NCBI GenBank assembly: GCA_947088345.1
Contig: CAMUGE010000020.1
Span: 1 to 52,333, forward strand
DNA: 52,333 bases
Reading direction: 5' to 3'
From: an uncultured Roseburia sp.
Lineage (GTDB): Bacteria; Bacillota; Clostridia; Lachnospirales; Lachnospiraceae
A model generated the notes under the pieces. The model did no database searches. It was not told the DNA's origin and worked only from the letters and a program-made list of their open reading frames with translations. The translations under genes and the position numbers were made by a program. This document shows, piece by piece, positions 16,954-41,449 of the stretch (the stretch's first letter is position 1; every line of letters begins with the position of its first letter).

Positions 16954-17179
16954 AGTATCCTCGTATTTTCCTTTCTAATATATAATTCCAGAACTATTTT
17001 TTTAAAATATTGTTGTGTATATGATACCTTATCTCGCTTGTCGTTTCAACTACAAAATACAATAGAATTGAAAGATTTAATATAAATAAAAATATTTTTT
17101 ATTATTTGCAATAAAACGATTCCCCTTTGCATTATCTAAGTAACAAACAACAACAAAGTTAGTGTGAAGCGAGTAGTGT
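16954..17179. other. AT-rich divergent intergenic region
   Basis: About 225 nt between the leftward SIR2 gene and the leader RNA on the + strand. It is very AT-rich, with no gene. A weak candidate promoter for the rightward gene is TTGCAA (17106-17111), 18 nt, CATTAT (17130-17135). No recombinase site or direct repeat bounding the SIR2 gene was seen. Confidence 0.4.
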
Positions 17180-17274
17180 TGGCGCGCTTCAAAGCCATAA
17201 ATGGCTTGCCACAAAGTCGCTTATGTGCATAAAGCTAATGCGAACTGTGCTCGCAATCAGAAATGGAGGTTATT
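17180..17274 (+). ncRNA. Candidate structured 5' leader RNA, copy A
   Basis: The 93 nt ending at the start codon of the secreted-protein gene align over the same length with the 93 nt ending at the start codon at 40853, roughly four-fifths identical by eye. Predicted hairpins are AAGCCA-TAAA-TGGCTT (17192-17207), inside a possible TGGC/GCCA clamp (17180-17183 with 17208-17211), and TGCGA...TCGCA (17239-17255). A conserved single-stranded stretch AAAGTCGCT lies between them. The ribosome binding site ATGGAGG forms the 3' end. It does not match any riboswitch class I can recall. Confidence 0.6.
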
Positions 17275-18024
17275 ATGAGAAGAAAAATGAACGGATTTGC
17301 AGCGGGATTAATGGCAATGAGTTTGGCAGCGGCAGCGCCTCTTACGGCGTCGGCGGGAGCGGTTTCTGAGACGCAGACGACAGCGATCACGGCGGAGACA
17401 AGAGCAAAGAAGCCGGATGCAGGCAAGCAGGATAAGACAGACACAACAAAGCCAAATAAAGCGCAGAGCCAGAAAGCAGGCAAAGTAACCTGTACGGCGG
17501 CAGGTAAGGTAAACGTTTCATTCAAGAACAAGGTGGTATACACAGACAATGTAAGAGCAGTCATTACAGACGCGCAGGGAAATGAGATTGCATGCAAGAT
17601 TTCCAAGAAGAACAAAAATTTGCTGACAGTATCCGTGTCCGGACTGGTAGCGGGCCAGACGTATACGATTACGATCGACGGTATTGTGGGAAAAGATACT
17701 GCGGAAGCTGTAACGATTACACAGAGTTTTGTGGCAAAGGGAATGAAAACAAGCTGCAAAACATCCAAACCGGTCGTTTCAAACAACAAATTTGTGACAA
17801 TTAAAATGAACGGTTCTGCATACTACAAGGATGCGGCGGTTGTCGTTACGGATTCCGACGGCAACACCTGCGATGCAAAGATTGTGAAGAAAGCAAAAGG
17901 AAACATCAAGATTCAGATTACAGGGATGCAGAAAGGGAAAACGTACACGATTACAATCAATGGAGTGAAAACGAAAAAAGAGAAGAATTTTGGTTCCATT
18001 ACAAAGACTGTTACGGTAAAATAG
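17275..18024 (+). CDS. Secreted protein with two Ig-like beta repeats
   Basis: A 249-residue exported protein of unknown function. Residues 1-~27 form a signal peptide ending in a TASA-type cleavage site. A Lys/Asp/Thr-rich linker follows (to ~68), then two tandem beta-rich repeats of ~85 residues. Each repeat ends with the same signature (GQTYTITIDG and GKTYTITING) and contains AVITDAQGNEIACKI or AVVVTDSDGNTCDAKI, with two Cys per repeat. No sortase motif or C-terminal membrane segment is present, so it is released or bound non-covalently. The ATG at 17263 lies inside the ribosome binding site ATGGAGG, so the start is taken at 17275. The gene is preceded by leader copy A and followed 48 nt later by the sigma factor gene, so the three may form one unit. 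Confidence 0.75.
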   Translation: MRRKMNGFAAGLMAMSLAAAAPLTASAGAVSETQTTAITAETRAKKPDAGKQDKTDTTKPNKAQSQKAGKVTCTAAGKVNVSFKNKVVYTDNVRAVITDAQGNEIACKISKKNKNLLTVSVSGLVAGQTYTITIDGIVGKDTAEAVTITQSFVAKGMKTSCKTSKPVVSNNKFVTIKMNGSAYYKDAAVVVTDSDGNTCDAKIVKKAKGNIKIQITGMQKGKTYTITINGVKTKKEKNFGSITKTVTVK

Positions 18025-40721: not shown

Positions 40722-40740
40722 ATGAAATTAGTAATTTCAT
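40722..40740. promoter_or_regulatory. 19-nt perfect palindrome before leader copy B
   Basis: ATGAAATTA-G-TAATTTCAT, a 9-bp inverted repeat around a single G, lies 15 nt upstream of the leader element. Without a T-run it is more like an operator than a terminator. Confidence 0.4.
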
Positions 40741-40754
40741 GATCCTGGTTTATA

Positions 40755-40852
40755 TGGCTGCGCGCTGCAAAGCCGTAAACGGCACGCCATAAAGTCGCTG
40801 ATACGAAAAAACGAATGCGAACTGTGTTCGCAATGCAGAAATGGAGATTAGT
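40755..40852 (+). ncRNA. Candidate structured 5' leader RNA, copy B
   Basis: The 93 nt before the start codon at 40853 match leader copy A at 17182-17274. The first hairpin is GCCG-TAAA-CGGC (40772-40783), where the loop-closing A-T pair of copy A is replaced by G-C, while the TAAA loop is kept. The last hairpin is TGCGAA-CTGTG-TTCGCA (40816-40832), one pair longer than in copy A. A TGGC/GCCA outer clamp is possible (40755-40758 with 40786-40789). CAGAAATGGAG with the ribosome binding site ends both copies. Confidence 0.6.
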
Positions 40853-41449
40853 ATGAAATTTTTGGGTTTGTTTATCATTGTGGTCTGTATCATTTCCGCG
40901 GCCGGAAAAAAACATGCGCGCAAGCAGCGCGATGTTAACGATGCGTTCTGGGATCGCGAGACGGCCGCCAACTATGTGAGGAAAAAGGATATCAGTAGTC
41001 TTCCCTATATTATCATACCTTTGGAGAAATTTCCAATAGGTATTGAAAAAAATGACGAGCTTCTGGAATATGAATCTGCGTTAAAACAGTTGTCGGAGAA
41101 AAAAATCCTGAATCTGTCCTCGCAGACAAATACAGATTTAAAGCTTGCCTATGGGCCGGCAAACCTCCCGGCGCTGTCGGAATACGACCAGAATTTCTCG
41201 ACATTATGCACAACGCTGTCGGCCTACGGAGAGCGTCTGCTCGCGCTTGGCCATGAGGATGAGGCGCGCGCTGTCTTAGAATATGGCGTCGAGATCGGCT
41301 CTGATATCAGCAAAACTTATCTGACGCTCGCCGGGATCTATCAGAAGCACGGGCTTACGACGGAGCTTGCGCATTTAAAGGAATGCGCCGAAAAACTTGA
41401 TTCCATTATGAAGAGGACAATCTTGACGCGCCTTGCCGAGATTTCGTAG
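40853..41449 (+). CDS. Membrane-anchored helical protein of unknown function
   Basis: A 198-residue protein. One hydrophobic segment at residues 2-17 (KFLGLFIIVVCIISAAG) can act as membrane anchor and is followed by a charged KKHARKQR stretch. The rest is soluble and ends in a TPR-like helical region (ALGHEDEARAVLEYGVEIG, SKTYLTLAGIYQKHG, residues ~130-175), suggesting a scaffold or partner-binding role. I do not recognise a named family. GGAG in the leader precedes the ATG at 40853; another in-frame ATG at 40841 lies inside that site. The stop codon abuts the convergent exonuclease gene. Confidence 0.72.
   Translation: MKFLGLFIIVVCIISAAGKKHARKQRDVNDAFWDRETAANYVRKKDISSLPYIIIPLEKFPIGIEKNDELLEYESALKQLSEKKILNLSSQTNTDLKLAYGPANLPALSEYDQNFSTLCTTLSAYGERLLALGHEDEARAVLEYGVEIGSDISKTYLTLAGIYQKHGLTTELAHLKECAEKLDSIMKRTILTRLAEIS

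Follow-up and report, generated by a model that had tools for sequence, protein, structure and literature searches.

The window analysed here, a stretch of 52,333 nt from an uncultured Roseburia sp., contains two genes that are each preceded by a leader of related sequence, referred to as copy A and copy B (Table 1). Below, the element is the repeat family of these two leaders, G000 is the window's own genome, SD is the Shine-Dalgarno sequence, and R1 is a covariance model built from 18 copies of G000 and G023. A full copy of the element runs from a 5′ hairpin (P0) through an H-type pseudoknot (P2 and P1) to a 3′ end that merges with the SD and start codon.

Table 1. Coordinates of copy A, copy B, and the genes that follow them.
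Feature	Position	Strand	Remarks	Basis
Copy A of the element	17162..17264	+	P0 mostly missing; P3 and P4 inserts present	
Copy A, R1 match	17156-17274	+	117.9 bits; A lies within the R1 training set	
Copy A, remnant of P2 5′ strand, GCGA	17169..17172	+	could pair with 17217-17220	P2 covariation in the family
Copy A, P3 hairpin, AGCCA-TAAA-TGGCT	17193..17206	+	optional insert of the family	sequence
Copy A, P2 3′ strand, CACAAAGTCGC	17210..17220	+		
Copy A, P4 hairpin	17239..17255	+	contains A-C mismatch	sequence
Copy A, SD, GGAGG	17265..17269	+	5 nt 5′ of ATG 17275	sequence
Gene 3′ of copy A	17275..18024	+	249 aa; no Pfam match; in-frame ATG 17263 would give 253 aa	
Copy B, P0 hairpin, ATGAAATT-AGT-AATTTCAT	40722..40740	+		sequence; P0 covariation in other copies
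Copy B, R1 match	40734..40852	+	112.2 bits; B lies within the R1 training set	
Copy B, P2, TTTAT..GGC with GCC.ATAAA	40747..40793	+	encloses P3 (40772-40783)	sequence
Copy B, P4 hairpin	40816..40832	+	fully paired	sequence
Copy B, GCAG	40835..40838	+	directly 5′ of AAATGGAG	sequence
Copy B, SD, GGAG	40843..40846	+	before ATG 40853	sequence
Gene 3′ of copy B	40853..41449	+	198 aa; no Pfam match	

An earlier note on this DNA had described the two leaders as a shared structure of 93 nt, and all items of that observation are present in the sequence. In the MAFFT alignment of the 93 nt, each copy has one gap, A17197-T17202 closes the TAAA loop of copy A and G40775-C40780 that of copy B, and the A-C mismatch in the last hairpin of copy A (17239-17255) becomes an A-T pair in copy B (40816-40832). 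The copies are 82.7% identical over 98 columns (E 6e-22 in BLAST against a small local database). Their homology reaches further 5′ than the 93 nt, and P0, which also belongs to the full element, is mostly gone in copy A and retained in copy B. In both copies, an ATG overlapping the SD region (AAATGGAG) lies in frame 12 nt 5′ of the start codon (17263-17275 and 40841-40853).

Single-sequence folds of A and B are unconvincing, with z values of -1.72 and -0.16, respectively. Since folding of the single copies is not significant, two copies are no proof of structure, and A and B by themselves give weak ground for one. The predicted structure is supported by 33 compact copies from several genomes. 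The compact element measures about 88 nt, and the form with inserts about 120 nt. P0 is a hairpin of about 10 bp, and comparison of compact copies yields the variants GTGTG..CACAC, GAGTG..CACTC, GATTG..CAATC, and GGTTG..CAACC. P2 comprises about 12 bp, with variants GCAATTTGAGTC/GACTCAAAGTTGC, GCGATTTGTG/CACAAAGTCGC, and CAAGTTTG/CAAACTTG in the same comparison. P1 pairs GCGCTGC of the P2 loop with GCAGCGC directly 5′ of AGAAAT and the SD. P3 (in the P2 loop) and P4 (5′ of P1) are optional inserts, both present in A and B, whose subtype has a short P1; the GCAG of copy B could form such a P1 with CTGC at 40758-40761, as judged from P1 covariation in compact copies only.

Across the 33 compact copies, nearly all of which were found by R1, a model that includes P2 and not P1, 89.1% of cells pair in P2 and P1 and 10 of the 19 pairs are changed on both sides. 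The combined score is 0.265, against 0.149 after shuffling, which leaves the kinship of the copies in place, and at most 0.066 after sliding. For P1 alone, the score is 0.187 against 0.147 (2 of 500 shuffles), there are six both-side-changed cells against 1.5 in shuffles, and both-side change occurs in only two of its seven pairs, a figure reached by 197 of 500 shuffles. P0 scores 0.321 against 0.115 in 22 hairpins preselected by a hairpin finder; without preselection, a hairpin of about seven pairs occupies the P0 position in 43 of 93 copies, where shuffles predict 1.9. By sequence comparison, P0 and P2 covary strongly and P1 moderately, and the proposal that the leaders represent a selected RNA structure holds for the family. 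A plain repeat without RNA selection is not supported, given the covariation of P2+P1 and of P0. A further pairing between the P2 loop and the linker is weaker (0.179 against 0.148, 23 of 500 shuffles). The hairpin favoured by energy folding, between the linker and the 3′ strand of P1, was rejected, as none of its pairs is changed on both sides. RNAalifold, applied to 19 copies, draws P0 and P1 and omits P2; as P1 and P2 cross, a single nested drawing cannot contain both.

The structure was compared with known RNA families using Rfam 15. The window contains no match at the gathering score, the matches around A and B all lie far below it (best E 1.6), and ten loci with compact copies give none at E<=1. 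With nothing above gathering, membership in a known Rfam family is not supported, in line with the initial failure to place the leaders in any riboswitch class.

The position of the element relative to genes is nearly fixed. Among 45 copies fetched from G000, 39 lead into an ORF of at least 60 aa, 32 of them exactly at the model end and seven within -6 to +11 nt; at five of the other six, an ATG at this point opens only a short frame, and L117 lacks one. The 3′ end is present in all 45 at no more than three mismatches, although the model that found the copies includes this end. The SD lies 5-6 nt 5′ of the start codon in 51 of 68 copies, and the copies read are all in sense orientation to the gene.

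The downstream genes are diverse. Out of 30 G000 proteins scanned, 27 matched Pfam, with no common pathway; they include HPr kinase, YhbY, RsfS, HydF, Hsp33, SpoU methylase, EPSP synthase, LuxS, isocitrate/isopropylmalate dehydrogenase, LD-carboxypeptidase, RpiB, NifU/IscU, a pterin-binding enzyme, regulators, a phosphatidylglycerol lysyltransferase domain, an integrase, and a band-7 protein. The two window proteins and that at L114 had no match at the cut-offs used. The phosphatidylglycerol lysyltransferase domain, LD-carboxypeptidase, and band-7 protein could be envelope-related, but families this diverse do not support an envelope regulon, and the suggestion that the leaders serve envelope proteins is not borne out.

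The element occurs in many copies and is patchily distributed. A pattern derived from A and B finds 12 places in G000 at three mismatches (none with the reversed control), and BLAST with copy B returns 22 matches there at E<=1e-10, A and B included. At E<=1, R1 has matches in 26 of 60 relatives: at least 60 copies in G000, where every scored candidate matched, 39 places in G023, 19 in G011, 18 in G042, 16 in G015, and 14 each in G006 and G048; at this threshold, R1 finds nothing in 14 of the 36 genomes listed for the same genus. A second model, R2, built from compact copies, has matches at E<=1e-4 in 14 of 40 genomes of the genus. Across the order, with 14 candidates per genome scored, it matches four of 295 genomes at E<=1e-6, namely G000 plus a single genome from each of three further genera in the family. 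One 18-base pattern occurs in at least 111 stretches of named genomes, and many of the 80 titles listed for it are Roseburia, Acetatifactor, Parablautia, Eubacterium, and unclassified Lachnospiraceae. Among the matches listed, those in Proteobacteria and other distant groups have no further part of the element and look like chance. No plasmid matched a query of one compact copy; one viral contig carries the 3′ pattern, and 14 unannotated faecal phage records contain distant matches. The covariance-model search proposed at the outset thus returned many copies directly 5′ of start codons in Lachnospiraceae, with covarying pairs, and dispersed copies in such number are a property of small non-autonomous mobile repeats.

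Another such property, the existence of both filled and empty orthologous sites, is found at all four genes tested (leuD, iscU, luxS, and mnmA), where relatives without an intact element start from a plain SD. The leuD site is filled in G023 and lacks the element in the 29 other loci read (one with only 16 nt upstream), nearly all of which have an SD just 5′ of the ATG. At luxS, the eight closest of 26 loci were read, and G000 is filled while the other seven are empty. At mnmA, 11 of 30 loci were read, the G000 start was excluded, and G022 is filled while all nine resolved others are empty; a GGAATGAGGATTACTATG string also lies about 100 nt upstream of mnmA in G006. At iscU, G000 has a 5′-truncated copy, and 24 of 30 loci, including that of G048, lack an intact element; four further starts were not resolved, and one locus has only 10 nt. 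The IscU protein of G048 shares 97% aa identity with that of G000, and its upstream sequence reads ..CAAATAGATGGAGGAGTTTTATG where G000 has GGGAG, the insert, and GGGAGAGTTTTATG. The truncated copy thus abuts native DNA directly, with GGGAG on both sides. One of the 24 loci counted as empty, L320, contains a stretch resembling a decayed 5′ part.

The sequence 5′ of the element also often resembles a ribosome-binding site. Within the 14 nt 5′ of P0, 42 of 68 copies carry an SD-like 4-mer, compared with 5-11 of 68 for 12 other windows; nine of 77 collected rows were dropped for this count, and at least two rows duplicate a copy represented by another row. Direct repeats were assessed by comparing the bases 5′ of P0 with those 3′ of the element, with permutation within P0 classes and 18 of the 77 rows dropped. 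A perfect anchored repeat of 7-10 nt flanks six of 59 copies against 1.74 expected (15 of 5000 permutations; 31 of 5000 for the mean score). This excess stems mostly from the GAGTG class (10 of 5000). The two larger classes, GATTG and GTGTG, show no increase in mean score (permutations as high number 2770 and 1245 of 5000), and only two copies in each reach a score of 6, with 0.61 and 0.32 expected. Most copies have no clean direct repeat. The counts by P0 class thus support an SD duplication in part of the copies; elsewhere it is eroded or lacking.

Loss of the 5′ part is frequent. Substitution-only matching finds no 5′ module in 17 of the 45 G000 copies (for L043 owing solely to a gap), and a search with this module found 22 places (none in the control), 21 of which keep the 3′ end as judged by eye. 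Such 5′ loss beside an intact 3′ end fits copying that would begin at the 3′ end, and would also fit selection for the SD. Two enzymes were considered as movers. RVT_1 reverse transcriptase has one match each in G006, G011, G015, and G022 and some in 20 of 40 genomes, with none in G000 or G023, whose assemblies are incomplete. In REP/RAYT and IS200/IS605-derived repeats, as in the element, hairpins lie near the ends and the target is a short motif. A Y1 transposase would be expected with REP/RAYT, but Y1_Tnp searches found none in the element-rich genomes G000, G006, G011, and G015 and only a 59-aa fragment in G023; the transposase is present in G020 and G022. Neither candidate tracks the element across genomes.

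From these comparisons, it is proposed that the element is, probably, a short non-coding mobile structured element of Lachnospiraceae, which would insert between the SD of a host gene and its start codon, always in the same orientation. Leaders A and B belong to a structured, SD-associated family that behaves as mobile; the comparisons show a covarying structure, a preferred position and orientation, absence at the orthologous sites of relatives in four genes, and high copy number with patchy distribution. Insertion and site preference are deduced from the comparison of loci. The element RNA would form P0 followed by the H-type pseudoknot, with the P2 loop pairing through P1 with bases just 5′ of the SD, and the 3′ end (GCGCAGAAAT in the compact form) is followed by an SD. 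Insertion would leave the native SD upstream, while translation could start from the SD adjoining the ATG, and some insertions appear to carry a 7-10 nt direct repeat containing the SD. Insertion may be near-neutral, since an SD remains beside the ATG. The fold may keep the ATG-proximal SD accessible or serve a step of movement, and a trans-acting enzyme presumably moves the element. The earlier note had set a regulatory RNA against a mobile repeat, but the two are not exclusive: the insertion-like behaviour expected of a repeat was found, whereas the lack of position preference and covariation also expected of one was not, both being strong.

Three other readings were weighed, which overlap with one another and with the mobile element, so that their likelihoods are not shares of one whole. 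The element may be a cis-regulatory leader of a regulon (a riboswitch, or a protein-binding or stress-responsive leader), with P1 beside the SD acting as the switch and copies kept as useful control. This appears rather unlikely. The covarying pseudoknot does end a few nucleotides 5′ of the SD, with sense orientation and near-fixed spacing, and the weaker pairing of the P2 loop with the linker could give a two-state switch. Yet the 27 Pfam-matched downstream proteins share no pathway, orthologs in relatives lack the element, and 17 copies do without the 5′ module, so that the complete fold is dispensable at their sites. In the small H-type pseudoknot riboswitches preQ1 and SAM-II, as in the element, the second stem ends close to the SD; the element differs from them in its lack of an Rfam match, its diverse downstream genes, and its insertional spread.

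It is improbable, if conceivable, that the element is RNA-borne and reverse-transcribed, priming occurring where the SD-ATG stretch matches the 3′ end of its own transcript, comparable to the target-primed reverse transcription of eukaryotic SINEs. The frequent lack of 5′ ends beside the kept 3′ end, the sense orientation, the direct repeats of varying length, and the truncated iscU copy joined straight to native DNA would all agree with such copying, but RVT_1 is missing from the incomplete assemblies of the two richest genomes, G000 and G023, and selection for the SD alone can account for intact 3′ ends. A broader form of this idea, likewise doubtful, would make the element the bacterial equivalent of a SINE, a very small folded RNA spreading via its own transcript and primed on ribosome-binding sites, with each insertion harmlessly duplicating the SD, at least one sister type of G000 apparently sharing the head hairpin and SD-like tail, and elements stacking before one gene by order of arrival. 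It also seems unlikely that the element is an ordinary MITE, that is, the non-autonomous remnant of a DNA transposon recognised via terminal repeats. The ends GTGTGAAA.. and ..GCGCAGAAAT are not mutual inverted repeats in the alignments, as judged by eye, a covarying pseudoknot is a property of one strand, and the copies read share one orientation to the gene, even though the element is like small bacterial repeats in its size, copy number, patchy distribution, and direct repeats (PMC2229807).

Comparison of the element with published repeats and RNA motifs drew on passages of PMC11109978, PMC8632094, PMC2229807, PMC6542083, and PMC3446304. The bcr1-bcr18 repeats of the Bacillus cereus group are 100-400 bp long with mobile features, and bcr1 averages 39 copies per strain; they often lie in UTRs or intergenic regions of operons, and bcr10 and bcr18 have conserved RNA structure (PMC6542083, PMC3446304). 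Their mobility is tied to a TTTAT motif in the portion of PMC6542083 consulted, whereas the sites of the element are SD-like, a distinction drawn from description and not from sequence. ERIC and YPAL/RU-2 of enterobacteria are small transcribed non-coding repeats, and YPAL is known from filled and empty sites with duplications of 3 to 26 bp (PMC2229807). As described in the same partial source, they lack SD-ATG placement and a conserved pseudoknot, unlike the element. Bacterial RNA-motif screens have also recovered multi-copy structured motifs judged to be selfish (MRSC), with 250 candidates in one study (PMC11109978); the example given in the part of that paper available is a single long stem, unlike the element, and overlap with the MRSC motif list is possible. 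No report of an element between SD and ATG was found in the titles and abstract openings of open-licence literature.

If the proposal of a mobile structured element holds, the family would be mobile and targeted to ribosome-binding sites while preserving an SD next to the start codon, and this would account for dozens of copies upstream of genes, including those encoding HPr kinase, Hsp33, LuxS, and IscU. The element would reshape 5′ UTRs in gut bacteria, and comparative RNA searches can mistake a family of this kind for a large regulon. It would also offer a clear test system for the movement of small structured elements that have no gene of their own.

The fold may have been preserved while some insertions were inherited: the element lies at the same gene start in a Eubacterium MAG (L194, minus strand, ~110-270) and a Eubacteriaceae genome (L225:7370-7467:+), and the two P0 sequences differ while both pair.

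Other repeats neighbour the element. One combines a similar head hairpin, GTGAAATT..AATTTCAC, with a body unlike that of the element, CCTGATTGGTATGCCCGCCAAAGCGGGC, ends in an SD-like tail, GGGAGTTAG, and sits directly 5′ of the element or of other repeats at L048, L055, L102, L103, L109, and L120, an arrangement that looks as if elements were stacked at one ribosome-binding site. Another, with hairpins of its own and the ending GCGGCAGAGCCGCGACATGGAGGTTAG, lies upstream of the element at L046, L048, L050, L054, L058, and L061, its SD-like tail directly 5′ of the next element's head. Tandem copies of the element itself occur at L178:648-767:+ and L144 (minus strand, before 1211), where the sequence before P0 resembles the 3′ end of an earlier element (GCGGAAATGAGG and GCAGAAATGAGG); the second copy thus seems to have been inserted behind the SD of the first. 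In addition, a repeat core, CTAACGCGAAACAGGTTCGCGCGC, occurs 15 times at no more than four mismatches upstream in 43 G000 loci (L043-L065 and L102-L121).
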